From Haliotis asinina (taxonomy: Eukaryota; Mollusca; Gastropoda; Lepetellida; Haliotidae), in the NCBI RefSeq assembly GCF_037392515.1, contig NC_090290.1, forward strand, positions 38,012,753 through 38,076,752: a stretch of 64,000 bases of DNA. The letters run 5' to 3'. A program made the position numbers and the translations under genes. Below, piece after piece: positions 12,801-61,600 of this stretch. Position 1 is the first letter of the stretch; every line of letters starts with the position of its first letter. The notes under the pieces are model-generated. The model saw nothing but the letters and a program-made list of their open reading frames with translations. It was not told the origin of the DNA and made no database searches.

Positions 12801-15800
12801 TCACGATATACAAACCATGTTGCTGATGTTAGATATACAGATATATATCGAGATTTGCCAAACCTATCTGGGTCACTGACTGACTGCTATGGAAGCTCAC
12901 GACCCAAGAGATCTATACATATGATAAGTTGTCCAATTGGTGACTTGAGTGAGGAAGATAAGAAACTGACATTCTGTTTAGTGAGGATGGTTTTACACAG
13001 CTTTTAGTAATATTATGGCAACATCAAAGCTGAGGACATCAGAAATGGGCTTCAAACATTGTACCCACTGTGGGAAACTAAACACATATCGCTGGTGTGA
13101 TGAGCGAACACCTTAACCAGTTGGTTACCCTATCGTCCCTTAAACAAATATGATTGATACATATCAACACTAAAAAACACATAAGTATATTAAAGAACAA
13201 TGACATCTCTATTCTTCTGTGAAATTCTCAAGACATGTCTATCATGAAATTTGCATGTAATTGTAATTGAAATACATGGTACCTTTGACCTTCTGCTGTC
13301 CTTGAGCAGATCGACATTCCACCCAGCACTGTACAAGCAGTGGAATCAGGGCCGTGGCAAAGTCAGCAAAGTTATCTCCCTTAGATAATGTCACACTTGT
13401 GGTGCTAACTGACCTTTCAACACATGTAGAAACATTAGACCACAATGCCATATGATAAGCTAACTGAAAACTAAAAAGAATTCTGATCGATACAAAACAT
13501 GCACAAAAATCAAAAGAATAAAAACATGATCAACAATATGAATGAAAATCCACCATGAGCTGTTTATCACTTCAGTAACAATGTGTGACATAAATAAAAA
13601 AATTAAAAAAATAAAAATGACAACTGTAACCATGGTTACCAACTTAAATGTTTTAAGAGCTCCAGATTGACATGTGCTGCTGGTGCCAGATTCCAGCGAT
13701 TAATAACTTTGCGTCAATACATATAGATGCAACAGTAGCCTACACTCAGCAATACTGCAGCTGTGATAGCATAGTGTAAAGAGTGAGTGAGCGAGTTTAG
13801 TTTTACGCCACTTTTTGCAATATTCCAGTGATATCAGATTGGGGTATCAAACGCTGATATCAAGGATGCATATCACTGTCTCCCAACTGCATTGATCAAT
13901 ACTCATAATATCAATCACTGGATTGTCAATTACAGACCTAATTATTTACTGACTGCTATTATATAGTGTTAATATTAGTGAGAGTGGTATTAAAGAGAGT
14001 ACGGAGCAACTAATGGGATCGGATGGTCAGGCTGGCTGACTTTGTTGACACGGTATTGTTTCCCAGTTGTGTAGATCGATGCTCCTGCTGTTGATCACAG
14101 GATTGTCTGATTCATGCAGCTGGAATATTACTGAGTATGGTGTAAAACTCAACTCATTAACTGGAAAAACAACAAACACTGGTATTAAACATGGTAAAAA
14201 CAATCGAAGACTCACTTTAATTTAAATCCTGGTTGCTCCCAAGAATCAGTAACACTTGATGGAAACTGCAGAGGAATACAGGACACCTCGGCATATTTAC
14301 GTCCCTTGTTACCGAGACCTGATGTGGAAGTGTCCGTGAATCCCCATGTCAGCAATGTCAGCAACAACTTATACATTCGACTCAATATTCCGGACCGCCA
14401 TCGTTGCACAGAATATTTACTGTCAGGTTTCACAGCTAGCGATAAATTCGACTTTTGACCTTTTGTGACATTTTGTTGGCGGGAAATCTGTTCAATAAAA
14501 TTCTGAAGCAGTTGTCCAGAGTTTTTGGCGATAAGAGATGGGTATGTGTCTAGTAACAAATCGAACACTTCCAGAGAGTCGTGTTGGATGTCATCGTAAA
14601 TATGGGTCATTGCGCAACACAAATGAGCAGAGAGTACTGGGAAGAATGGCTCAATCTGCTGTGCAGGTGTGCTTGTAAATATAAGTTTGAACAATTTTAA
14701 ACACGCTTGACGAACATTTGAATCTTTGTCCATGATAAGAGGCAAGGCTTTCTCTATGATGGTCGCTAGTTGTGATGTCATCATGTGTGGATGAAGCGTC
14801 ATCAGTTCCCGTAGGCCCATCACCCCATCATGGCGGACGCTGATGCTGTAGTGTTGACACTTTGGCAGCAGGTCCTGAAACCCAAATGATAAAATAATTT
14901 TACACTGATGAATTTTCCAGTAGGAATTAGTTTTCAGTAATCCATCAGGGATGGAAATAACTTTGCTAGTGTACCCACATACAGTGATATATGTAAAACA
15001 CTTGCCCTGATAATTTTCCACTCTACTACTAATACTAGCAGACTTTCTTGTTGATTTTTCAAATGTACAATATAACTAACATTGGAAAGTCACCTTTACA
15101 CTGGTAAAACATGATGTCCAAATTTCCTTGACCAACATAAACAAGAGTCATCAGAAGATGACATATCCCCCCGGCCCCCAACATGTTTGAAAGGACAAAT
15201 AATCTGAGAGTTACTCATTACTCATTGAATTGTTTCCATGGAATTCATGAAAATTATAAATGCCACATATTTGTAACCAGCAAAGTCACAATTTCATATA
15301 TCTGCCAAGATCTGTTGAAAGATATGAAATGGTTTTCAAGTTGTGCTCTGGGAACAAAGCCCACCCCTCCATTGTGAAACTAAGTCCGAAACGTTTCCAT
15401 GGAAACCAAGAACATAATAAATCACAAAAACCCTTAAAAACCAAAAGGCACCACTTTGGGGTCTGCCACACATATCTAGAAAGTTTTACTAACAGTCATT
15501 AAGAAGTTTTTGAGTTCAGCTCTGGAAATGAAACACATGTCTCACTTTTCAGAATAGGTCCGAAACGTTTCCAAGGAAACCGAGAAAATAATAAATCACA
15601 AAAACCTGTACATACCAAAAGGCACCACTTCAAGTTCTGACTGACATATCTACCAAGTATTGCTGAAAAATATTGAACGGCTTTTGAGTTCTGCTCCAGA
15701 AACGAAACATACCTCTCAATTTTGAGACTATGTCTCAAATGTTTCCATGCAAACTGAGAAAATAATAAATCACAAAAACCTGTATCTACCAAAAGGCACC

Positions 15801-17608
15801 AGTTTAGGTGCTGATTGATATATCTACCAAGTTTTGCAGAAAAATATCGAATGGTTTTTGAGTTCTGCTTTGGAAACGAAGCCCACCCTACCATATGGCT
15901 AACACCAAAATGTTCCATGGAAAAACAAAAAAAGTATAAATGCCAAAAATCTGTAAATAGCAAAAGGCACAACCATAGGCTGAGATTACTATATCTATCA
16001 AGTTTGGTCAAAAATGTTGAACAGTTTCTGAGTTATGCTCCGGAAACAAAATGATTCGGGACGGACGGGGGACGGATGGACGGACAGACGAGGTGTCGAC
16101 TATATCCCCCCGCATTACATGCTGGGGGGATAAAAAGCACTGGACTGGGACGTCAGGCAATGGATTATTTCCACCCATGTGTAGCAAGAGGAAGGTAAAG
16201 GTTATTGTTAGAGGGTGAGTGAGTGAGTATGGTTTTACACTGCTTCTAGCACTATCACAGCAATATCATGGTGGGGACTCCAAAAATGGGTTTCACATAT
16301 TGTACCCATGTGGAAAACTGAACTTGGGACTTTGGTGTTAAGAGGAAACATGTCCAGGTGATCAGAATCACGGCTTGACTATGCGAGTCAAATGGACTAT
16401 TTGGTCCAGACTGGATTATTTACAGACAGTTATAAAACAGTTCAAATACTGCCGACTGATCAGTTACACTACAAGTAATGGTAACTACACAGACAAGGAA
16501 CAACTTTCTTTTCCCCATAAAAGTGTGAGATCAGACGATATTGCCTAGAGATATCGCTTTAACAGTAGGTTTTGCACAATGCCCTGACAATGCCATGACA
16601 TCATGAGTGAGTGAGTGAGTGAGTTTTAGTTTTACGCCGCACTCAGCAATATTACAGCTATATGGCGGCGGTCTGTAAATAATCGAGTCTGGACCATGTG
16701 ATCAACAACATGAGCATCGATCTGCGTACTTGGGAACCGATGACATGTGTCAACCAAGTCAGCTAGCCTGACCACCCGATCCCGTTAGTCGCCTCTTACG
16801 ACAAGCTGAGTCGCCTTTAATAGCAAGCATGGGTTGCTGAAGGCCTATTCTACCCCGGAACCTTCACGGGTACCATGACATCATGAACTTGATGACATCA
16901 CAATGCTATGACATCATTGCACTGAAAATCTAATGGCAGTGCTGTGTTCAGAGAAGTACATTTTTCCTTGAAAACTGATGAAGAATGATTTTGGATGATA
17001 AATAGAATTTCACCCTTGTGTCTACTGATATCAGTTATATCAACACTTGCTGAAAAAGGTAAAAATATCCTTGGCAGGCTTCACATATTTGTTACTTTAT
17101 CAACTTGTGTTGATATATTTGATATCAGTAGACACTTGGGTGAGATTCTCTATTCATGCCACATTAAGCAATATTCTAGCTATATGGTGGACCAGCAGGA
17201 TGAGCAATGATCTGCACAATTGAGAACATGTGTCAACCAAGTCAGCGACAACCTGACAACCTGTTCTAATTACTTGCCCCTGACAACAAGCCTAGTTGCC
17301 TCCTGTGCATGGGTTGCTGAAGACCTATTCTACCCTGAATCTTCACAGGTCACTAATTTAAAGACAAGTGGAGAATGAGATGTTTAACAGCAGGAACCCA
17401 AAACCTTCAAAATATAAATGTTCACCTCAATACTGAGTCTCCTGTGTGTGCTGGGTTGTGACCCATCAGTCTTGATCTGCTGTACAACTTGAATAGCATG
17501 AGTCTTGAAGCTGGTATTTGTAACATTTTGACCTTTGGGTAACCTCTTGCCGACCTTTAACTTGACCTTCTGAAAGTCCTCTTGCTTCTTCTTCTTGCTC
17601 TTGGCCAT
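510..17608 (-). CDS. TEX10: TEX10 (Ipi1-type ribosome biogenesis protein), gene span of 13 recognised exons
   Basis: TEX10 and its yeast homologue Ipi1 act with PELP1 and WDR18 (Rix1-type complex) in the nucleolus on pre-60S particles and ITS2 processing; in vertebrates it is also in the SENP3-linked 5FMC complex (family knowledge). Seen here: a Lys-rich N-terminus followed by DFQKVKLKVGK, as in vertebrate TEX10; a HEAT-type helical block in the second exon with SVRHDGVMGLREL, DKDSNVRQACLKLFKL and PFFPVLSAHLCCAMTHI; then short exons matching the rest of the family in order. Recognised exons sum to 2629 bp, about 876 residues, against roughly 930 in human; the shortfall fits one unfound exon between 5374 and 2560. 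Every adjoining intron phase agrees except across that gap. All recognised introns are GT-AG. Coordinates of exons are given separately. Confidence 0.93.
928..1683. repeat. 25-bp minisatellite in TEX10 intron
   Basis: About 30 head-to-tail units of 25 bp, consensus near GTAGACAGGTGAGTGAATGG plus five bases (GTTGCA-type linker). Variants alternate between GTGAGTGAATG and GTGAGGGAACA or GTGACTGAACA, and a block of 50 bp is repeated exactly around 1235-1345, suggesting recent higher-order amplification. Since 25 is not a multiple of 3, all three minus frames carry similar TCLLQ/HLSTATV repeats and look open; they are not genes. The plus strand carries a CAG|GTGAGT donor-like motif in many units. 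Confidence 0.95.
1730..2003 (-). CDS. TEX10: TEX10 penultimate exon
   Basis: Begins TMSHKVCVTTILSCLKCLHV; equivalent to the LWGVCVSILALLPRVLRLM region. Acceptor TTGCTTTCAG, donor GTGAGT in phase 1, which joins correctly to the last exon. Confidence 0.87.
2090..2300. repeat. AAGGTCAAGGTCA-bearing interspersed repeat
   Basis: Contains GTGACCTTGA near 2100 and AAGGTCAAGGTCACC near 2251, with CAAAACTGACTGGGCCC and CAAATCTGACTGGGACC repeated about 145 bp apart. Similar TGACCTTGACC strings recur at 8897-9000. Resembles a common invertebrate interspersed repeat; no coding capacity. Confidence 0.55.
2480..2560 (-). CDS. TEX10: TEX10 exon (follows an unfound exon)
   Basis: 27 codons, phase 0 both ends, with a strong TTTGTTTCAG acceptor and GTAAGT donor. 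Reads VLHHLQQVPDVSGLGDVILS then FWCPIL, resembling the segment of human TEX10 around SETLLPFLASCCYSLL. Confidence 0.82.
3760..4043 (-). repeat. SINE family A copy, near full length
   Basis: Starts with the (GTGA)n tail at 3760 and reaches the CAGAACCTTCACCGG head. Lies in the TEX10 intron that should contain the unfound exon. Confidence 0.9.
4292..4470. mobile_element. Short inverted-repeat element (MITE)
   Basis: Left end TACAGTCAAGTCTTGTTACT and right end TAACGAGAGTAGACTGTACA are imperfect inverted repeats; the interior repeats TTAGCCGATAATC/TTAATCCGACAAT motifs. No open frame. Confidence 0.5.
4477..4700 (-). repeat. SINE family A copy, degenerate
   Basis: Recognisable from CAGCAATATTCCA to the ACAAGCATGGGCT head; head truncated. 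Confidence 0.7.
5123..5215 (-). repeat. SINE family B fragment
   Basis: Tail and central domain only (GAGTGAGTGAGT, CCAGCAGTATT, GGGACACCAAAACTGG); tRNA-like head is missing. Confidence 0.6.
5374..5465 (-). CDS. TEX10: TEX10 exon 10
   Basis: Encodes FQREIDTEKHVESDVTM then TEYLSFLLSVLAG, equivalent to DYFSFLFSTLTG in human. Acceptor TTTGTTACAG chosen because it restores codon AG+A from exon 9. Donor GTAAGC in phase 1; the next recognised exon starts in phase 0, so a piece is missing between them. Confidence 0.9.
5655..5790 (-). repeat. tRNA-like SINE, family D
   Basis: Shares ACCAGTCCTTGTT, GCTGA.CGCCAGG and GGATTGAACCCATGACGCT with 52080-52225. GGATTGAACCC is a B-box like motif read in reverse. 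Two copies seen. Confidence 0.65.
5827..6262 (-). repeat. SINE family A copy split by a second family A copy
   Basis: Outer copy occupies 5827-5932 and 6149-6262; the inner copy is 5933-6147. The break carries a near-identical 12-bp duplication, CAATTGCGATAC (5921-5932) and CAGTTGGGATAC (6149-6160), the expected target-site duplication. Confidence 0.8.
6887..7064 (-). CDS. TEX10: TEX10 exon 9
   Basis: Begins VTDGLFCQTEAAQQRGLLDT and continues VPHFTAQLLTRLVSMC, matching FLPSLPADLLSRLSRCC of human TEX10. Acceptor TTATTCTAG, donor GTAATG, phase 1 in and 2 out. Confidence 0.92.
7122..7695 (-). repeat. SINE family A copy interrupted by duplicated TEX10 DNA
   Basis: SINE sequence at 7122-7250 resumes at about 7571-7695 at the equivalent position. 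The intervening ~320 bp contains the partial exon 8 duplication. Confidence 0.75.
7332..7492 (-). pseudogene. Duplicate of TEX10 exon 8 end and intron start
   Basis: 161 bp matching 7761-7921 at about 94 percent by eye, in direct orientation at an offset of 429 bp. It includes the last 33 bp of exon 8 and an intact GTGAGA donor, but no acceptor or rest of the exon, so it cannot be a complete alternative exon. Confidence 0.9.
7889..8061 (-). CDS. TEX10: TEX10 exon 8
   Basis: Encodes MRILMDQFFQTLPDLLPHV and later ALIVQVMRQAACQRCRPLL, aligning with the WLAGLPLQLAHL region. Acceptor TTCACTACAG, donor GTGAGA, phase 2 in and 1 out. Its last 33 bp with the donor are duplicated about 429 bp further into the intron (see 7332-7492). 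Confidence 0.92.
8145..8372 (-). repeat. SINE family A copy
   Basis: Tail GTGAGTCAGTGAG, central GCTATATGGCGGTGG, then ACCACCTGATCC and a shortened head. Confidence 0.85.
8590..8719 (-). CDS. TEX10: TEX10 exon 7
   Basis: Encodes LVESIVEHALARYNKAHPLS and LELFTSLFLDSKIQLP. Phase 1 in, phase 2 out, donor GTGAGG, acceptor TTTCATGTCAG. Corresponds to the repeat before the SRWLAGLP segment of the human protein. Confidence 0.9.
8885..9040. repeat. TGACCTTGACC-rich repeat fragment
   Basis: Several TGACCTTGA strings (8897-8990) and AAAGGTCAAA; related to 2090-2300. These match the extended half-site of ERR/SF-1 type nuclear receptors, but here they are probably just part of the repeat. Confidence 0.5.
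9131..9205. mobile_element. 75-bp foldback MITE
   Basis: Terminal inverted repeats GTCTCATTACATAC and GTATGTAATGAGAC bound a 75-bp unit, with a second inner pair ACGAAA/TTTCGT. In a TEX10 intron. Confidence 0.7.
9206..10299. other. TEX10 intron stretch, nothing recognised
   Basis: Includes short open frames on both strands at 9826-10142 that overlap and have no family resemblance. No repeat family of this window recognised. Confidence 0.4.
10300..10495 (-). CDS. TEX10: TEX10 exon 6
   Basis: Begins VTSEALNLSVCEVMVTF after a TTTACAG acceptor and ends at GTATGT in phase 1. Aligns with the LLLNLTLSDIMVSL region of the human protein; the rest is helical repeat with weak identity. Confidence 0.9.
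10541..10803 (-). repeat. SINE family A copy, near full length
   Basis: Starts 45 bp from TEX10 exon 6's acceptor; complete from GAGTGAGTGAG to CCCGGGACGTTCACGAG. Confidence 0.92.
11012..11252 (-). repeat. SINE family B with long (GAGT)n tail
   Basis: A (GAGT)n microsatellite of ~90 bp (11012-11102, two GAGC variants) adjoins the B tail, then GGGATACCAGAAATGG, GGGAATCGAACCCAGG and the tRNA-like head with CCCACAAGGCTACACCACTG. Confidence 0.9.
11406..11540 (-). CDS. TEX10: TEX10 exon 5
   Basis: 45 codons, phase 0 both ends, VKEIFVSHEKEFMNHFVAYF then PYIIQDNVG. Matches the FKHHFMSRFPYVLKE block. Acceptor GATTTTGCAG, donor GTAAAC. The tail is basic (HRKSKK). Confidence 0.93.
11928..12162 (+). 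repeat. SINE family A copy, plus orientation
   Basis: Head GATCTTCAGTAACCCATGCT through CGGCGTAAAACTAAATTCAC to ACTCACTCACTC. Opposite orientation to the copy at 12319-12565. Confidence 0.88.
12319..12565 (-). repeat. SINE family A copy with (GAGT)n tail
   Basis: A pure (GAGT)n run of ~73 bp (12319-12391) continues into the SINE tail TTTAGTTTTACACC. Internal part between ATCAGCA and CCTGTTACGAC is deleted. Confidence 0.9.
12639..12742 (-). CDS. TEX10: TEX10 exon 4
   Basis: Reads VMHHVMQVLHLLWRCLDSA, corresponding to the VMQQVLNIISLLWKL segment of human TEX10. Acceptor TGTTGTCAG, donor GTATGT, phases 1 in and 0 out. An upstream alternative acceptor would introduce an in-frame TGA. Confidence 0.9.
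12975..13140 (-). repeat. SINE family B copy
   Basis: Contains GGGCTTCAAACATTGTACCC, GAGCGAACACCTTAACCAG; located between TEX10 exons 3 and 4. Confidence 0.75.
13283..13413 (-). CDS. TEX10: TEX10 exon 3
   Basis: Contains FATALIPLLVQCWVECR, matching the IIPLLIECW block of the family. The acceptor was chosen by phase: an upstream, better-looking TTTTCAG acceptor at 13464 would put a stop across the junction with exon 2, whereas the weaker AG at 13414 keeps frame. Donor is GTACCA, phase 1. Acceptor choice is the least certain boundary in this gene. Confidence 0.8.
13786..14158. repeat. Composite of SINE family A fragments
   Basis: A minus tail fragment (13786-13835) is followed by two plus fragments (13871-13978 and 14008-14158), each carrying the ATCACTGGATTGTC or ATCACAGGATTGTC block. 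Ends 58 bp short of TEX10 exon 2's donor. Confidence 0.7.
14216..14874 (-). CDS. TEX10: TEX10 exon 2, HEAT-repeat core
   Basis: Starts DLLPKCQHYSISVRHDG after a TTTCAG acceptor and ends in phase 2 at a GTGAGT donor. Encodes about 220 residues, the most conserved part of the protein: paired helices, LPLIMDKDSNVRQACLKL, then PFFPVLSAHLCCAMTHI and DSLEVFDLLLDTYPSLI, which line up with human TEX10. The C-terminal third (after KGQKSNLS) is less conserved. Confidence 0.95.
15145..16135. mobile_element. Non-coding element carrying ~174-bp tandem repeats
   Basis: About four and a half tandem units of roughly 174-180 bp, each with GAGTTCTGCTCCGGAAACGA-like, GTTTCCATGGAAACC, AATAATAAATCACAAAAACC and CCAAAAGGCACCA. 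Bounded by ATATCCCCCCGGCCCCC at 15163 and ATATCCCCCCGCATTACATG at 16100, the latter forming a hairpin with GGGGGGAT. Near the right end lies GGACGGACGGGGGACGGA. The minus frame stays open for 170 codons because the unit is a multiple of three; I do not think it codes. A reverse fragment lies at 25660-25810. Confidence 0.8.
16214..16345 (-). repeat. SINE family B copy
   Basis: GTGAGTGAGTGAGTATGG tail, GGGTTTCACATATTGTACCC; head lost. Confidence 0.75.
16603..16872 (-). repeat. SINE family A copy, full length
   Basis: Well preserved with GCCGCACTCAGCAATATT, GGCGGCGGTCTGTAAATAA and CCCGGAACCTTCACGGGT; an internal 15-bp gap near GACCATGTGATC. Flanked by CATGACATCATGA on both sides (16597-16609 and 16873-16886), the likely target duplication. 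Confidence 0.93.
17004..17149. mobile_element. 146-bp MITE (intact reference copy)
   Basis: Inverted termini AGAATTTCACCCTTGTGTCT and GACACTTGGGTGAGATTCT, with inner ACTGATATCAGTTATATCAA and its inverse. The same element is found broken open at 30449-32228. Confidence 0.85.
17155..17352 (-). repeat. SINE family A copy
   Basis: Adjoins TEX10 exon 1's donor side; starts at ATGCCACATTAAGCAATATT and reaches CTTCACAGGTC with internal deletions. Confidence 0.8.
17426..17608 (-). CDS. TEX10: TEX10 exon 1 (start codon)
   Basis: Encodes residues 1-61, beginning MAKSKKKKQEDFQKVKLK. The ATG at 17608-17606 is chosen because it aligns with the vertebrate start; a GTG three codons upstream in the same frame is ignored. 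The exon ends LSIE before a GTGAAC donor in phase 0. The basic head is a likely nuclear/nucleolar signal (inference). Confidence 0.93.
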
Positions 17609-19345: not shown

Positions 19346-19466
19346 CAATCCCAGAGACAATGGCATTATATTTGGCATGTTCACAAATTGGAAAGGACAT
19401 GGTAGAGTGAGGTTGATATACAAGGAATGAAAACAAATCATTTAAACTATTTATGCTTCTAACTGA

Positions 19467-20508
19467 CAGGCCCCCCTAAGTAATTGAAGGAATTACAGCA
19501 AATTTGAAGGAATTGCATCTAAAATGTAAACAAACGCAGCCCACTCGCGAAACAATTGCAGCGATATCGGTAATTTAGCGGTAATAACAGAAATACATCG
19601 GCCCTATCGGAAGCAATGTCGGTAATACTGGAAACACGATCGGCCATCTTCGGAGATTTTTCGGTCGCGAGCGGAAACTCATGCAGCAAAACATGGCGTC
19701 GTTGGAAGAAGCGCCCGTCTCGGCGAGATTTGTTTTTAGTTTCTACTATTACATTTTTATACTTATCCATCTTTGACCACCCGTGTTGAATGCGTTTAGG
19801 TATGAGGTCTTGTCGGAGCAAAAGCTTATGTTTTTAGGAAAAGATAGTCACTCTAGGAGAGTGTCACAAGTCATGCCCCTGTAGTTTGTTTACATCTGAA
19901 CATCGAAGTCGTGCCGATGATTACGAACGTGCGCCAGATATAACATCATTTTGTTTGTAAAATGTGTTTAAATTTGTCAATTGCACTTCGTAGCAAGAAT
20001 AATTATGGCTCATAAACTTCTTCATGGCGCACGTTCATGATGTTCGTAATCATCGGCACGACTTCGATGTTCAGATCATATGTAAACAATCTCCAGGGGC
20101 ATGACTTGTGACACTCTTCTGCAGTGACAATCTTTTCCTAAAAACATAAGCTATTGCCCTGACAACACCTCATACCTAAACGCATTCAACGCGGGTGGTC
20201 AAAGATGGATAAGTATGAAAATGTAATAGTAGGAACTAAAAACAAATCTCACCGAGACGGGTGCTTCTTCCAACGACGCCATGTTTTGCTGCGTGAGTTT
20301 CCGCTCGCGACCGAAAAATCTCCGAAGATGGCCGATCGTGTTTCCAGTATTACCGACATTGCTTCCGATAGGGCCGATGTGTTTCTGTTATTACCGCTAA
20401 ACTACCGATATCGCTGCAATTGTTTCGCGAGTGGGCTGCGTTTGTTTACATTTGAGATGCAATTCCTTCAAATTTGCTGTAATTCCTTCAATTACTTAGG
20501 GGGGCCTG
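19467..20508. mobile_element. 1.04-kb palindromic (foldback) DNA transposon
   Basis: Two arms of about 470 bp (19467-19937 and 20028-20508) are inverted copies with only scattered differences, around a ~90-bp centre. Ends are CAGGCCCCCCTAAGTAATTG and its inverse, and ACTGA occurs directly outside both ends (19462-19466, 20509-20513), a 5-bp target duplication. The arms are CpG-rich (TATCGGTAAT, TCGGTCGCGAG), unlike the surrounding DNA. Each arm has an open frame of ~83 codons, MDKY..VIV to GLRLFTF, pointing outward from the centre; identical because the arms are inverted copies, so not evidence for a protein. Superfamily not assigned. Confidence 0.9.
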
Positions 20509-20513
20509 ACTGA

Positions 20514-21700
20514 GAGATTTTGTAATCCAGCGAAGCATTTTTGAGCCCCAACAATGCCAATTAATCTGAAAAAAGCACCGGGTTAAGTGCACGAACTCCT
20601 TTATGAAAAAAAAAAAGACCTACTAGCACCACAAACTTTAAACATACATCATAATACCCTTTTACGTAACTCTATGTGATTTTGTTCCAAAGCACATTCT
20701 CGAAACAATGCCATATGGTGCCGGCATCACAACATAGCTGTCCAGCTCATAAAGTGCATAGTATTATTATAAGCTCCGCTCACTGATGTTTCATCTCTAC
20801 TAGCTATGTCAGTGCATAAGCCCAATTATACTGAGAGTTTCCAGTAGCAGCTCGTGCAGTTTTTGCAAGCACCATTTTAAATATCTTTTTTCCTTTTACA
20901 CTCAAAGCTAATTTGTGTATCAGTGTCCAGTGCACTTTCCATTGTTAATTATGTTGTTTATTTAAATAATCAACAAGAAAATCAGCTAGCATTGTATTTA
21001 GGGTGAGGTATGCATGTCAGTTTGTAATTTTGGCTTTTGATTGGGGTGGGGGGTACGGGCGGCACCCCCGTTTTATTTTATCATTCTATAATTAAAAAAC
21101 AATGTTTATTGATAAAAAATCCATAACATTGACCACTACCCTAAACCACATCCTTACCTTAACCCTATGACCCTGAAACCTCGACATAATCCTAATATTA
21201 ATAAACTGGATACTTCTCATGTGGGGATACGGGCGGAACTCTTACCCAGGATAAAACATGTGAACGAATTTGACGTATACTCGGAATAATAGGGTGAACG
21301 AAATCTGAACAAATCATTTTGAATCGATACTTGCTTCTTTAAATACAACATGTGTGTGCCACTCTTCGAATAGAAACTAACAAAATGTATAGAAATATTT
21401 CCGTAAGGTAACTTTGAACTGACAAGTCATGATAATGGGCAAATGTGAAACTTACAGTATCAATATAACGGAATCACATGGTAAGCGTAGGCAGCCATTT
21501 TGAAAATCCACAAAAGTATAAATTGACGGGTGAATTTCTTCCGAATCACGAAAATTCATGAATAAATGAACACTTAAATTTGTACTCTTTCCTTATAGAA
21601 AATTAGTATGTATCTATGTGCTTAAAAAGCTATCCAAATTTGTTTTCTCCAATCAAATGGAAATTTTGATAAAACTCGTAATTCGCATGATGGCTAGAGT
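20514..21700. other. Intergenic, no gene; degenerate C-rich stretch
   Basis: No exon recognised. GGGTACGGGCGGCACCCC (21052) and GGGATACGGGCGGAACTC (21224) are similar and bracket ~170 bp containing repeated CCCTAA/CCTTAACCC strings; possibly a small repeat unit. Confidence 0.4.
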
Positions 21701-26245: not shown

Positions 26246-26586
26246 CAGTGTTCACGAATAGCATCTGACCCTCTGACAAATCTGGCAGATTCGCCAGTCC
26301 AACTTGCCAGCCCCAGTGAATATATATTCAGCCCACTGAATATTTCACAATGTCTTTGTGTGAAGTTGCTATTTGTTGCCATGTGACACTTATTTGCTGT
26401 TTATATATCTTATGTTTGTTATCATATAATGTTTATAATTTCAATGCCAGTTATAAGAAATGTTAAATCTGAAATGTTTGTTTAGCTTAATTCTGTGGGT
26501 CCAGTGGATTTTCAGTGGGTCAGACAGACATCCGAAACTTACAGGACCCAATGTCCTGTTACTTTGAAAAACCATCGTGAAAACTG
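26246..26586. mobile_element. 341-bp hAT-like MITE, copy 1
   Basis: Begins CAGTGTTCACGAATAGCATC, ends in the inverted GTGAAAACTG, and is flanked by TTTCAAC on both sides (26239-26245, 26587-26593). Same length as the inverted copy at 43898-44238 and the same family as the split copy at 30491-32123. Confidence 0.85.
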
Positions 26587-29985: not shown

Positions 29986-30689
29986 GTCAGCTTTTACGAA
30001 CCAGTGCCAAATAACTATTGGCTTCACTGTTGTTGTTTCCCAATTTCTTTATTTATCTGATATATAGTAAGAGTAAATTATGAAATGTCGTGTTCTTCAA
30101 AATAAAGAAGTTGACGCCCAAAAAATCTTGCTTTGATATGTATCACTTCTATCTAAGTTCTGTTCAAAGGTAATTTGCTCTTTCTCTTGTGGCCATGCCA
30201 AAAAGCCAGGATTGGAATGAAATCCATTTTCACGCTGATCATGTTTTAAGGATAGTTAGTACTGGAGATGTTTCAATGGGCTTGTGTGTGGATATGGCCT
30301 CTAGGTCCATTAGTTCTAGACAAGTGAAAAAGTACACAGAGTTGTTTTCTCCCATGCTTGACAAGTCTGAAATGAGCTGCAGACCTGTAGGTTTGGGCCA
30401 GTGGTGTTGACTTCATGAAGCAGAGCCAATGATGTAGCTGAAATATGAAGAATCTCACCCATGTGTCCACTGATATCAGTTATATCAACACAGTGTTCAC
30501 GAATATTGTCTGACCCTCTGACAAATCCGGCAGATTTGCCATGGTCAGACAGACGTCCCCAACCTGCTGACCCCAGTGTCTGACTGAATATGTCACAATA
30601 ATTTGTTTGATTGGCATTATTAGTAGCTGGTAAGTGATAACAGGGTAAGATTCTTTATGGATAACAACTTCTTTATTGCATATTAATTT

Positions 30690-31066
30690 TGTAGACGACA
30701 CCTTTCGGTGGCTGTTGTTGTTTAGAGGTGTTCCTGCCATTCGCTTTGAGCATGGTTTACAGTGTTGTAGAACTGGTAAAGTAGGTTTCAATGCCTGCTT
30801 GTTGCTTTAGGAGACAGCTGATGTGGTAGGAGGTTTTTCCAATGAAGGGTAAAGCGATGCGGATAGGTGCTGGTTCAGGTTTGTTGGTGGGCTCTTTTCT
30901 TGTCGGGTGGAGTGTGGATCTGATGATTTTATCAACTAACTTTGGTGGGTAGTGGTTGAACTTGGTGAAAACATGGCGGAGGTGTTGTATTTCTGCACTT
31001 GGACTGTTTGAGGAGAGGTTTATGGCCCGTCTGGTGAGGGTAGAGATGATCCCAGTTTTGGTTTTC
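30690..31066 (-). pseudogene. Inverted piece of the same Penelope-like polyprotein
   Basis: Minus frame reads LTRRAINLSSNSPSAEIQHL, RHVFTKFNHYPPKLVDKIIR, then PAPIRIALPFIGKTSYHIS and ends at GVVYKIN, where it jumps to the element's tail; the endonuclease is deleted. Overlaps in content with the plus copy at IGKTSYHIS. Confidence 0.8.
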
Positions 31067-31573
31067 AGGGGACCTGAACCAGCACCTATCCGCATCACTT
31101 TACCCTTCATTGGAAAAACCTCCTACCACATCAGCCGTCTCCTAAAGCAACAAGCAGGCATTGAAACCTACTTTACCAGTTCTACAACGCTGAAAACCAT
31201 GCTCAAAGCGAATGGCAGGAACACCTCTAAACAACAACAGCCACCGAAAGGTGTCGTCTACAAAATCAACTACGACTGTGGCGAGGCATATGTAGGTGAA
31301 ACCTCCTGGCCCATAAACATCAGAATCAAAGAACACTTATCATCTACAACCAAATCAGATCGGAAATCTGCTATATCCGACCACATCATCAAATGTCCCA
31401 ATCACAGCATAATTTGGGACAGTGTAGAGATATTATCCAAAAACCAGAAGGACTTCACCCAAAGAAAACTGGCAGAAGCAGTTCAAATCAGGAGACACAA
31501 GCCCTCAATCAACAGAGATCAGGGATATCTCACCCCAACTGCATACAATGAACTCATAAAAATAACAGATTAG
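31067..31573 (+). pseudogene. GIY-YIG endonuclease end of a Penelope-like polyprotein
   Basis: Reads IGKTSYHISRLLKQQAGIET, then VVYKINYDCGEAYVGETSWP, INIRIKEHLS, SAISDHIIKC, KLAEAVQIRRHKPSINRDQG to a TAG stop. The VY...YVGET pair is the GIY-YIG signature of Penelope-like retroelements, with the downstream Arg (INIRIKEH) and Glu (LAEAVQI) of the active site. Intact to the stop, but the reverse transcriptase is missing, so it is a dead 3' fragment. The open frame continues upstream of 31067 only into antisense of the inverted piece. Confidence 0.85.
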
Positions 31574-32475
31574 AGCTCACCAGCCACCATTACTAATTAC
31601 CCTATCAGCCATGTATACTTTGTCACAGCTACAGCCACTATTGGCTTCCTCTTATTGTCTCATCATTACTACCACCCATTGTTGTTGTTGTTAATCCCCC
31701 GCTGTTGATTCATACCTACATGTTGTTATTACTTAATCCCTGTCCATGTATATGAGTCTGTTCTGTGATGTATTACTCCACTCTTGTTTGACAACGGTAT
31801 AAGGATCCATACCGAAACGTCGCATCATATGCAATAAAGAAGTTGTTATCCATAAAGAATCTTACCCTCTATATCACAATAACTTTGTCTGAAGTTGTTA
31901 TTTGTGGCATGTGACACTTGTTCACTCTTTATAAATTAATGTTTATAATGTTTGTCATTATATAATGTTAATAATTTCAGTGCCAATTATGAGAAATGTT
32001 AAATCTGAAATGTGTGTTTAATTTCATTCTAGGGATCCTGTGAATTTTCAATGGGTCAGACAGACATCTGCAACATACAGGACCCAGTGTCCTGCTACTT
32101 TGACACACCATTCGTTAACACTGTCAGCATGAGTTAAAGTTACAAATATCCCAGGCTGGCTTAGGATATTTTTACTTCTATCAATGAGTGTTGATATAAT
32201 ATATATATAGACACGAAGGTGAGATTCTATCTATCCTAAAAAAAATACCCTTCCTTAGTGTTTAATGAAAAACTAAAAACTGAAATCTCTGAACACTGTA
32301 CTACTGTTAGTCATGCAGTGCAGGAATGTTATAGCATTGTGATGTCGTAGGCTTGTCAGGGCATTGTACAAAATCTGCTGTCAAAACAATATCGTATGAT
32401 GTCAAACAAGTATTATCTCCTGTGGAACACAATTTTGGATGATAAACAAATCTAGTCTAGTCCTAACTATATTTT

Positions 32476-43897: not shown

Positions 43898-44238
43898 CAG
43901 TGTTCACAATGGCGTTTCAAAGTAACAGGACATTGGGTCCCGTAAGTTTCAGATGTCTGTCTTACCCACTGAAAATTCACAGGACCCACAGAATAAAGTT
44001 TAACAAACATTTCAGATTTAACATTTCTTATAACTGGCACTGAAATTATTAACATTATATGATAACAAACATAGGATTTATAAACAGCAAACAAGTGTCA
44101 CATGCCGCAGATAACAACAAACAAAGACATTGTGAAATATTCAGTCAGACACTGGGGCTGGCAGGTTGGTGATTTCTATCTGACCACTAGCGAATCTGCC
44201 AGATTTGTCAAAGGGTCACAGGCTATTCGTGAACACTG
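43898..44238. mobile_element. 341-bp hAT-like MITE, copy 3, inverted
   Basis: CAGTGTTCAC...GTGAACACTG ends, flanked by TGTGCA on both sides (43892-43897, 44239-44244). Reverse complement of 26246-26586 with ~85 percent identity by eye. Confidence 0.88.
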
Positions 44239-58617: not shown

Positions 58618-61600
58618 CTGAAACACCAAACACAATAGATTTGACAAGAGCTTTTCCAGCACAGATATATATCTTGTATGAGAGATATGGGTATAGGATT
58701 TTCAGGGAACAATTCAGCTTGTTTCTATTTCATATAAACTATACATTCATCTCAGAAATGATTTCAAATGAGACAATTCAAGAAGATCAAAACTATTGCA
58801 GTTGGTTGACAGACTATCGCTATCACAATCCTCAATAGTGACCCTTTGAAGTCAGACTGGGGTACTTACTTTGTGCGTATACAGTGGTCCAGTGGTGGAA
58901 CAAGCTCCTCATCAGAAGGTGGCTTGAAGAATCTACTTGACGTATCTAAACAAACGAAAACCAAAGTTCACTACCTATTTGAGATACCACTCACCCTTCC
59001 ATAAAACTTACCACACTTGTGGTGCTACATTCTCTTTGTGGAATCAGAGCACAATAGTTTAGCGCTATTTCTCTGCATAAAACACCACTCAATGTGTATC
59101 TGTAAGAGGTGAGGCTAGTTTAGACAGAGTTCATTTTAATTATTTTTGCTATGACTTACCAACAGTTAGTTTAATCTGTTCCTGTTGTCTAGCAAGGCCG
59201 TCGTAGTAGTAGAGGTCAAACCTACGCTCGGCCTTCCAGTCACTGATCAGTTCCCTTCGGATACTGAACATCACACTGAAGTGACTCTCACTGCATACAA
59301 CCCAGATTGGGAACTTGGGGGTCTTGTAGTATGTCCCCACCTGCAACATGGTCACAGGTGAGTTACAGAATTTAGTTTTATGTCACTCTCAGCAATATTC
59401 CAGCAATATCTTGGTGGGGGACATCAGACAACATTGCACCCATGGGAATTGAACCCAGATGTTTGGCTTGATGAGCAAATGTTTTAACCACCAGGCTTCT
59501 CCTTGTCAAAGGAGTAATGAACAAGTTGATATAGTGACTCTCGCTTTAAAGGGGTATTTAAGTTTTATCGAGTTCATGAAGGATTTTTGAGATCTCAATG
59601 TTTTGTAGAAGTTGATGAGCATGGTGCAACCACACACAAAATAACAATTACCTTGAATATGAAAGTGATGATCAGCAGGTTCTAGGAATAAAGCACCTAC
59701 AACTTGGGCTGCAATTTGTTAAATTCATCGAATATCAAATCTGACACCTTTTTGATAACCATTATCACCATTTCGATTCAATTTTTGAATATCCATTTAA
59801 ATTATTTTGAACAGAGTGAGAACAAAATTTTGTCTCCAACTCGAGCAGTTTTGAGCACTGAAATTAGGGATTGGGATGCGTTGATGCTGGTCTAATTACT
59901 AATGAAATTTTTTATAAGTACACATCGCCAAGTTGATAATGGATTTCACGCTCAAATAGCCAACTCTGAGAGTTCAATGAAATCTGATGTTTTTACTTGT
60001 TTGAAAAACTGAATCGAGTGTCCAATATGAAAAATCAAATCATGAATAAATGCAGCCCTACCTACAACACCTCTGCCTCACACAACACAAGGAGACACTA
60101 CACAATGTCCGTACCTTGCAAGACTTGTAGTGTTCAAACAAGGACAGGAATCCAATGTCAGAGCGTGCATGAATCCCTTTGAGGACGGTGACCTGGCCAT
60201 TCCCGGAGTCCAGCTCCATGACATCATTAAACACATTGGCCACAGCTCGGCCAGTCAGCAGCAAGTTGACCATTTCCTGCAACAATGTCAGCAAATTTTA
60301 CAATTTGAAGTGAGTTTACTTTTATGCTGCACTCAGCGAAATTCCAGCTGTATGGTGGTGGTCTGTAAAAAACTGAGTCTGGACCTGACAATCCAGTGAT
60401 CAACAACATAAGCACTGATCTGTGTAATTGGGAACCAATGACATATGTTAACCAAGTCAGAGCGCCTGACTACCTGTTAGGCGCCTCGCATGACAAGCAT
60501 GAGTTGCTGAATTCCAGTGCTCTCACTCATACAAATTGATCATGGTGCCTCACTCCAATCACAACAAGCCTTCAATGGATTGATGACTTATACTATTACA
60601 AAAAAAGGCATGTGTTAATACAGTTGAGGAGTGCTCTCTTGAGTATATTTCTGTTCCTCCTCCAAACAAATGACAACTAATATGTGGTGCTCTTCGTCAG
60701 ATTTGTAACACATCTATTTGAATCATTCATGCAGGAATATGTGTCAGTCACAATAATAGTGTGTGCCATGTAATGACTAGTTAAGTTAAAAACACTGTGA
60801 CATCCTTCTAGAATATTCACCCTAAAGGCTGAATATCCTGCTAGAACGTCCACCCTCCTAACTAGAATATTCACCTTGCCAACAAGAATATACACCTACA
60901 CTGCTAGAAGATACACCCTCTCACCTAGAAAACCCACCCTCTTAACTAGAATAGCCACCCTCCCACCTAAAATATCCACCCTCTCACCTAAAATATTCAC
61001 CCTCCCACCTAAAATATTCACCCTCCCACCTACACTATTCACCCTCCCACCTAAAATATTCACCCTCCCACCTAAAATATTCACCCTCCCACCTAGAATA
61101 TCCACCTTCCCATCTAAAATATCCACCCTCTCACCTAGAATATCCACCCTCCCACCTAAAATTTCAACCCTCTCACCTAGAATATGACCTGCACTGCTTG
61201 AGGATACCCTCACAGCTAGAATACCCACCCTCACAGCTAGAATATCCACCTTCACAGCTAGTATATCCACCCTCCCACCTAGAATAACTGCCCTCCCAGA
61301 TATTCTCCCAGCTACAACAACACCCTCCAAGAAGTCATGAAGCTGTTTAATACCTGAGTGCAGTATCCGTGTGCTGCCATAAGTTTCCCTTCCGGTTCAT
61401 CAAGATCATCCCGAACTCTGCAAGCAGCCAACACCATAGTAATCAACAACAAACACAGCAGGAATGTACAGGTGATATCAGCAAAAACATACCCATCGGT
61501 ACAACAAGAGATCTTAAAAGCAGCATCGTGCTGCATGGCCAGTCAAATAGTGTTTTGGTGTCACATGATAAATATCTACATACAAGTGCAAAACACAGTT

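Follow-up and report, generated by a model that had tools for sequence, protein, structure and literature searches.

A two-ended Penelope-like insertion nested in older repeats of Haliotis asinina, and a one-tail rule in its family that argues for priming from both sides of the target

The window is a 64,000 nt stretch of Haliotis asinina DNA (C11:38012753-38076752 of the 1.143 Gb genome searched). It contains a Penelope-like element (PLE) insertion with two outer ends, only one of which carries a tail. One tailed and one untailed end are found in each of the 23 two-ended insertions sampled from this PLE family, one of which (L055) rests on 8 nt. This one-tail rule speaks against fold-back self-priming; it favors priming that begins on either side of the cut, with two start sites on the RNA. 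The insertion is the innermost layer of a nest. A history in which an outer repeat took a hAT-like element and this in turn took the PLE, primed from both sides of the break at two RNA start sites, is likely. The nest itself is ordinary transposon stratigraphy and the interesting part is the paired-start rule. Two-ended insertions bear on the integration route of PLEs, as they record the start site used on each side, the point where the arms meet and, through arm divergence, age. With the multi-copy family described here, counts of such loci can serve to test self-priming against two-sided target priming.

The preliminary description placed a three-layer nest at 30449-32228, and the nest is real (Table 1). 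Halves of both the outer and the hAT-like layer are recovered by blastn within the window. Both outer-repeat halves align to positions 17004-17149 (E 3e-13 each): 30449-30490 is 93% identical over 43 bp, and 32124-32228 is 77% identical over 96 bp. For the hAT-like halves, matches are found at 26246-26586 and, in reverse complement, at 43898-44238 (E 2e-14 to 8e-70). Because the layers are nested, the order of insertion is outer repeat, hAT-like element, PLE, and divergence matches it. The nested outer copy is 71-76% identical to the 39 other copies scored (best 40 of 1143 candidates), the nested hAT-like copy differs by 14-15% from copies A and B in the window (8.6% divergence between A and B), and the PLE arms differ by 2.5%. 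The comparison of layers, outer > hAT-like > PLE, is consistent with the order that had been claimed, and the relative ages estimated in this way agree with the nesting, the outer repeat being oldest and the PLE youngest. Nesting dates single insertions, not whole families. Each layer was also said to have an intact relative in the window. This is true of the hAT-like copies but not of the PLE, for which blastn of 30643-31867 (E up to 1e-3) finds only the query itself and its own inverted arms.

Table 1. Positions of the nested layers and related features in the window
Feature	Position	Strand	Basis or remark
Outer repeat, first part (palindromic end)	30449-30490	+	Within-window blastn, alignment
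Candidate hAT-like target repeat TCAACA	30485-30490		Partner TCAGCA at 32124-32129, 5/6
hAT-like element, first part, TIR CAGTGTTCAC..., through PLE TSD copy 1	30491-30600	+	blastn, rejoined alignment
PLE target-site duplication (TSD) copy 1, ATGTCACAATA	30590-30600
Complete two-ended (head-to-head) PLE insertion	30601-31870		Arms, tail, TSD
39-nt PLE tail on left (inverted) end	30601-30639	-	Score 35 of 39
Tailed inverted arm, PLE 2199-2157 then 1598-1210, 558-nt gap between	30640-31071	-
Untailed direct arm, PLE 1401-2199, contiguous	31072-31870	+
GIY-YIG endonuclease segment	31247-31504	+	TIGR01453, E 1.2e-4, below curated cut-off
Hammerhead-like 3' half: GGTAT...ATACC stem, GAAAC, GTC; no canonical CUGANGA box	31787-31821	+
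PLE target-site duplication copy 2, ATATCACAATA	31871-31881		One mismatch
hAT-like element, second part, includes PLE TSD copy 2 (31871-31881), ends ...CGTTAACACTG	31871-32123	+	blastn, rejoined alignment
Outer repeat, second part, rest of 146-bp palindrome (earlier "MITE")	32124-32228	+	blastn, alignment
Outer repeat, non-palindromic remainder, overlooked earlier	32229-32393	+	Homology to reference and genome match ends
Outer-repeat reference copy, inverse orientation, split by SINE-like repeat at about 16607-16873	16550-17149	-
Intact hAT-like copy A	26246-26586	+	blastn, genome match ends
Intact hAT-like copy B	43898-44238	-	blastn

What had been termed a Penelope-like fragment is, judged from its sequence, a complete two-ended PLE insertion flanked by a TSD, and its limits are 30601-31870 rather than 30643-31867. 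Both outer ends represent the PLE 3' terminus, and the tail is on one end only; this structure and the TSD are observed directly. The same tail sequence is also present at one end of other PLE copies. PLE coordinates are those of a relative, L018, with the 3' end at 2199. The two arms share 198 bp with 5 differences and another 41 bp with none, and neither arm contains the other. Divergence between the arms of six other loci is 0.6-6.8%, compared with 2.5% (5/198 sites) here. The possibility that the window structure was copied as a unit was rejected: its arm coordinates recur in no other fetched locus, and junctions are shared only by apparent segmental duplicates such as L031, L032 and L036. 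These three loci (C1:29.28-29.50 Mb) apparently represent one PLE insertion that is present three times within 220 kb with the same junctions, i.e., a segmental duplication.

The corrected limits are reflected in the alignment of the hAT-like halves after excision of the insert. With the earlier limits, the rejoined halves show 73 gap columns against either intact copy because positions 30601-30639 are the PLE tail and not hAT-like sequence. Once 30601-31870 and one of the 11-bp TSD copies are taken out, 37 gap columns are left relative to copy A and 13 relative to copy B. Around the join, the alignment to copy A runs ungapped for 18 bases leftward and 23 bases rightward; in the alignment to copy B, the closest gap measures 3 nt and is located 9 bases beyond the join. 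With the corrected limits the alignment is continuous at the join itself.

Features of Penelope-like elements are present in the insert, namely inverted terminal copies, a 30-40 nt tail at one end and a short TSD (11 bp, one mismatch). A longer relative, L013, has RT and C-terminal GIY-YIG similarities in one ORF (RVT_1, E 9e-5; Drt2-type RT, E 5e-8; TIGR01453, E 5e-5); all RT and GIY-YIG profile scores for L013 and the window copy are below curated cut-offs. Pfam gives no GIY-YIG match for either copy. A PDB sequence search provides no lead for the window protein and weak RT matches for L013, and a search of viral contigs gave no lead. The predicted structure of the GIY-YIG part has a mean pLDDT of 36 and was set aside. 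A hammerhead motif is found in many PLEs; it is not treated here as a condition of membership. Where a CUGANGA box would be expected, the window has TTTGACAAC; most of the PLE copies listed, which are only those with an exact GAAACGT-type core, have CTTGACAAC there. No hammerhead in Rfam matches at the gathering threshold or at a lax threshold, the lax run yielding five sub-threshold matches to other families. The hammerhead-like 3' half without a CUGANGA box, which is similar in most of the listed copies, may represent a variant or a lost ribozyme.

Two genome samples of the PLE family were analyzed. The query for the first was PLE 1401-1902, which does not select for the tail. Scoring of the best 40 of 570 candidates gave 42 matches. 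Two are short and one is the window itself; the remaining 39 are long and 91-98% identical, and in some cases two of them are halves of a single locus. Thirty of the 39 were fetched, the nine omitted being mostly the lowest-scoring, and five of the thirty repeat a locus already fetched, either as a duplicate or as its other half (L010, L014, L026, L032 and L036). This leaves 25 distinct insertions plus the window. Twelve of these 26 are two-ended (L011, L013, L015, L020, L022, L023, L024, L028, L029, L031, L037 and the window) and 14 are not (L009, L012, L016, L017, L018, L019, L021, L025, L027, L030, L033, L034, L035 and L038); L016, L021 and L034 have inverted pieces without a matching pair of ends. 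The second sample was obtained with the PLE 3' end and tail as query, and the best 40 of 2193 candidates gave 30 loci, 11 known and 19 new. Among the new loci, 11 are two-ended (L041, L047, L048, L050, L051, L052, L054, L055 with its 8-nt end, L060, L061 and L068) and eight are not (L040, L045, L046, L049, L057, L059, L064 and L066). L049 is an apparent duplicate of L050, and L057 is cut by the locus end. Together there are 44 distinct PLE insertions, window included. Since 21 of them are not two-ended, the two-ended form is not universal.

The one-tail pattern is a direct observation in the sampled family, present in 12/12 two-ended insertions of the first sample and 11/11 of the second. Because the second sample was selected on the tail, the one informative result there is that no insertion has two tails. 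The tail is only partly present in L023 and L037. The single 3' ends of the 14 first-sample loci that are not two-ended comprise five tailed, seven untailed and two unreadable ends, which makes equal odds of either state at each end a reasonable null. The probability of 12/12 by chance is then 0.5^12 = 2.4e-4, if the insertions are independent. TSDs are clear in 20 of the 23 two-ended loci, weak in two (L037 and L050) and absent in one (L068). Of the 21 other insertions, 18 were tested for a TSD (all but L027, L033 and L057): 16 have none, L040 has a weak 8-bp match and L059 has a clear TSD without a second arm. Several untailed ends are followed by TAT, and the inner start site may thus sit 1-4 nt further out. 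In the parts of the literature that were searched, there is no statement that a PLE insertion always bears a single tailed end and a single untailed one. A tail optionally present at one of the inverted repeats is described in the available text of PMC3846280, and the word "tail" is absent from the portion seen of a D. virilis transposable element paper, PMC12910113.

The arrangement suggests the following steps. An old, abundant repeat would have received the 341-bp hAT-like insertion, and the PLE would have entered the hAT-like element later, using both ends of a staggered break. The cDNA primed by one target end would have begun at the outer RNA start site and so kept the 39-nt tail; the cDNA primed by the other end would have begun at a site some 39 nt further inward and so have no tail. 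Both cDNAs would have run toward the RNA 5' end, met head to head and been joined with little or no microhomology, and repair would then have made the 11-bp TSD. Two-sided priming, with each insertion using both start sites, gives the one-tail rule. The accessible part of PMC11167929 describes a PLE protein that in vitro cleaves and extends both target strands and starts reverse transcription at two adjacent internal RNA sites, the interval between them being the tail. It describes no apparent difference in start site between the strands. This counts against the paired-start reading but is compatible with the one-tail rule because, in the part consulted, junction pairs per molecule are not scored.

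The principal alternative is fold-back self-priming, where one cDNA snaps back and copies its own strand to produce head-to-head arms. Such a model was proposed for bdelloid PLEs, on an antisense template, in the section of PMC3846280 available, which also describes head-to-head PLE inverted repeats with junction palindromes. Also in its favor, a short imperfect palindrome is one possible reading of the window junction, and arms of one locus are closely related where the overlap is long. However, a folded copy should end where its template ends, and equal tail states are expected at both ends; 23 of 23 two-ended insertions do not have them. In addition, the untailed arm of L051 starts at 2199 and then holds tail sequence internally, and the lack of containment between the window arms does not fit a folded copy. 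Self-priming is thus improbable. It is far less probable still that two independent PLE insertions came to lie head to head by chance. Two 3' ends are indeed present, but in 20 of 23 loci both ends lie within one clear TSD and the arrangement recurs in 23 distinct loci; two separate insertions were rejected for the window, where the TSD brackets both arms. With priming from both sides of the break, the two arms would be two separately primed cDNAs, probably from the RNA of one source copy. The arms of one locus are mutually nearest in three of seven overlaps tested, which are the longest (L011, 7/603; L013, 9/1069; L020, 4/711), and this suggests one source copy. In the other four (L016, L021, L028 and the window) some other copy is nearer than the mate arm or tied with it.

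One arm is interrupted in 11 of the 23 two-ended loci, and two interrupted arms are found in none, as determined from blastn pieces. Ten of the interrupted arms have backward gaps of 128-1221 nt, with 558 nt in the window. In the 3'-end sample, gaps occur in both tailed and untailed arms. An earlier proposal that gaps are confined to the inverted arm was dropped, as the first query had favored contiguous direct arms. Spliced gaps were also considered and rejected, since 0/10 gaps have GT-AG ends. In eight of the ten backward-gapped arms the landing point is less than 200 nt from the 5' end of the mate arm. For this clustering the permutation p is 0.0007 for the count within 200 nt and 0.0007 to 0.0025 over four statistics, and uniform-landing nulls give 0.0001 to 0.0003 for the count and up to 0.0175 for summed distance, all for statistics chosen after the data were seen.

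Two processes may explain the gaps. One is a jump of the RT, where the second cDNA copies a short stretch from its start site and then lands on RNA close to the front end of the first cDNA; the chances of this are about even. The proximity of eight of ten landings to the mate arm is in its favor. So is the arm of L051 (L051:1117-1308), which starts untailed at 2199 and jumps forward from 2162 to 2236 into the tail. This jump suggests template switching, and as it runs forward into the tail no deletion can make it. Against a jump are the post hoc statistics, the origin of the loci in searches that scored the best 40 candidates, and the inner piece of L050, which rests on 77% identity over 53 columns. 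The other process, which falls a little short of an even chance, is a later deletion: both arms were first contiguous and a gap in one arm (558 nt in the window) was lost afterwards, owing to the instability of long inverted repeats whose loop is short. The inner ends of the arms are nearer to each other in the ten gapped loci than in 12 ungapped loci (median 150 vs 593 nt, Mann-Whitney p 0.016), as a deletion would predict, and the lack of resemblance of any gap to GT-AG introns is on the same side. Besides the L051 jump, the landings of L011 and L023, at 805 and 1468 nt from the mate's end, count against deletion. The same landing clustering is predicted by template jumping and by later deletion, and the two are not yet distinguishable. 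In a broader proposal, for and against which the balance is equal, a complete PLE insertion would be made by an obligatory pair of RT starts, one per adjacent RNA site and one per side of the break. The tail would mark one strand and not be optional, the second cDNA would often leap along the RNA being copied to the front of the first, and the arms would serve as a built-in clock like LTRs.

In twin priming of L1, an inverted 5' segment adjoins a direct segment. L015, L020 and L034 similarly have an inverted segment beside a direct one, but the inverted arms of L015 and L020, too, have the element 3' terminus as their outer end. Endonuclease-containing PLEs of Adineta vaga, as described in the portion of PMC3846280 at hand, are similar in their inverted terminal copies, head-to-head repeats and nested insertions; they have an optional 31-bp tail at one inverted copy and TSDs of 8-10 bp in the examples given, and a tail and TSD are likewise found here. 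They differ in that the PLE here is 5'-truncated with no pLTR defined, and the one-tail rule of 23 loci argues against the self-priming proposed there. PAc, a Poseidon PLE of Anolis carolinensis, resembles the present family, on the excerpts of PMC11167929 available, in an ORF with RT and GIY-YIG, a tail delimited by two adjacent internal RT start sites, and cleavage and extension of both target strands. Unlike the in vitro result, where no strand difference is apparent, each two-ended insertion here has one of each start. A hammerhead core reported for PAc in these excerpts is not intact in the family analyzed here.

The hAT-like element is 341 bp in length. Genome matches to copy A span 1-340 or 1-341 in 39 of 40 scored, its own included, and 1-331 in one (best 40 of 1256 candidates); within this set one other copy is 90% identical to copy A and 38 are 83-87% identical. 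TIRs that begin with CAG and end with CTG are present in the three window copies. Similarity to hAT-type non-autonomous elements consists of the TIR beginning CAGTG and ending CACTG or AACTG, the length, and no ORF of at least 150 aa there. A hAT TSD is 8 bp, whereas the target repeats of the window copies are 7 bp (copy A), 6 bp (copy B) and 5/6 (nested copy). The hAT identity of the element is unproven. Neither the hAT-like element nor the outer repeat is found in about 146 kb of other fetched loci; whole-genome first looks name 1256 and 1143 candidates, respectively.

The outer repeat is longer than the MITE that was initially described as ending at 32228. Homology to the reference copy continues to about 32393-32410, roughly 140-165 bp further, with the reference interrupted by a SINE-like repeat, and an extra 17 bp at 30432-30448 may belong to the first part. 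A genome search with 32124-32410 as query (best 40 of 1143 first-look candidates scored) gave matches that all cross 32228, own copy included. Thirty end at query position 269-270 (32392-32393), four at 287 (the query end), two at 262, one at 231 and three at 223. The supposed MITE is thus the palindromic end of a longer repeat that reaches about 32393, with an inverted repeat found at one end, where a MITE would have inverted repeats at both outer ends. The reference copy, which had been considered intact, is itself split by the SINE-like repeat at about 16607-16873, which has a 13-14 bp TSD. This forms a second nest (16594-16886), with the SINE-like repeat of ~267 bp and its TSD (CATGACATCATGA) inside the outer-repeat copy. 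Many related copies of the SINE-like repeat are found within the window; a literature search on the SINE motif gave no lead.

Other features of the window were noted. A tRNA scan of it gave no lead. At 19458-20517, CAGGCCCC / GGGGCCTG occur near the ends of an inverted repeat of 1.06 kb (88.6% over 1088 columns), which is probably another TIR element. Tandem arrays with 21-bp units (22 copies) and 25/50-bp units are present at 60841-61298 and 930-1670, respectively, and are overlapped by open frames of 166-310 aa. A minus-strand ORF at 14212-15075 has an Ipi1_N domain (E 2e-18) and is presumably an exon of a TEX10/IPI1-type gene.
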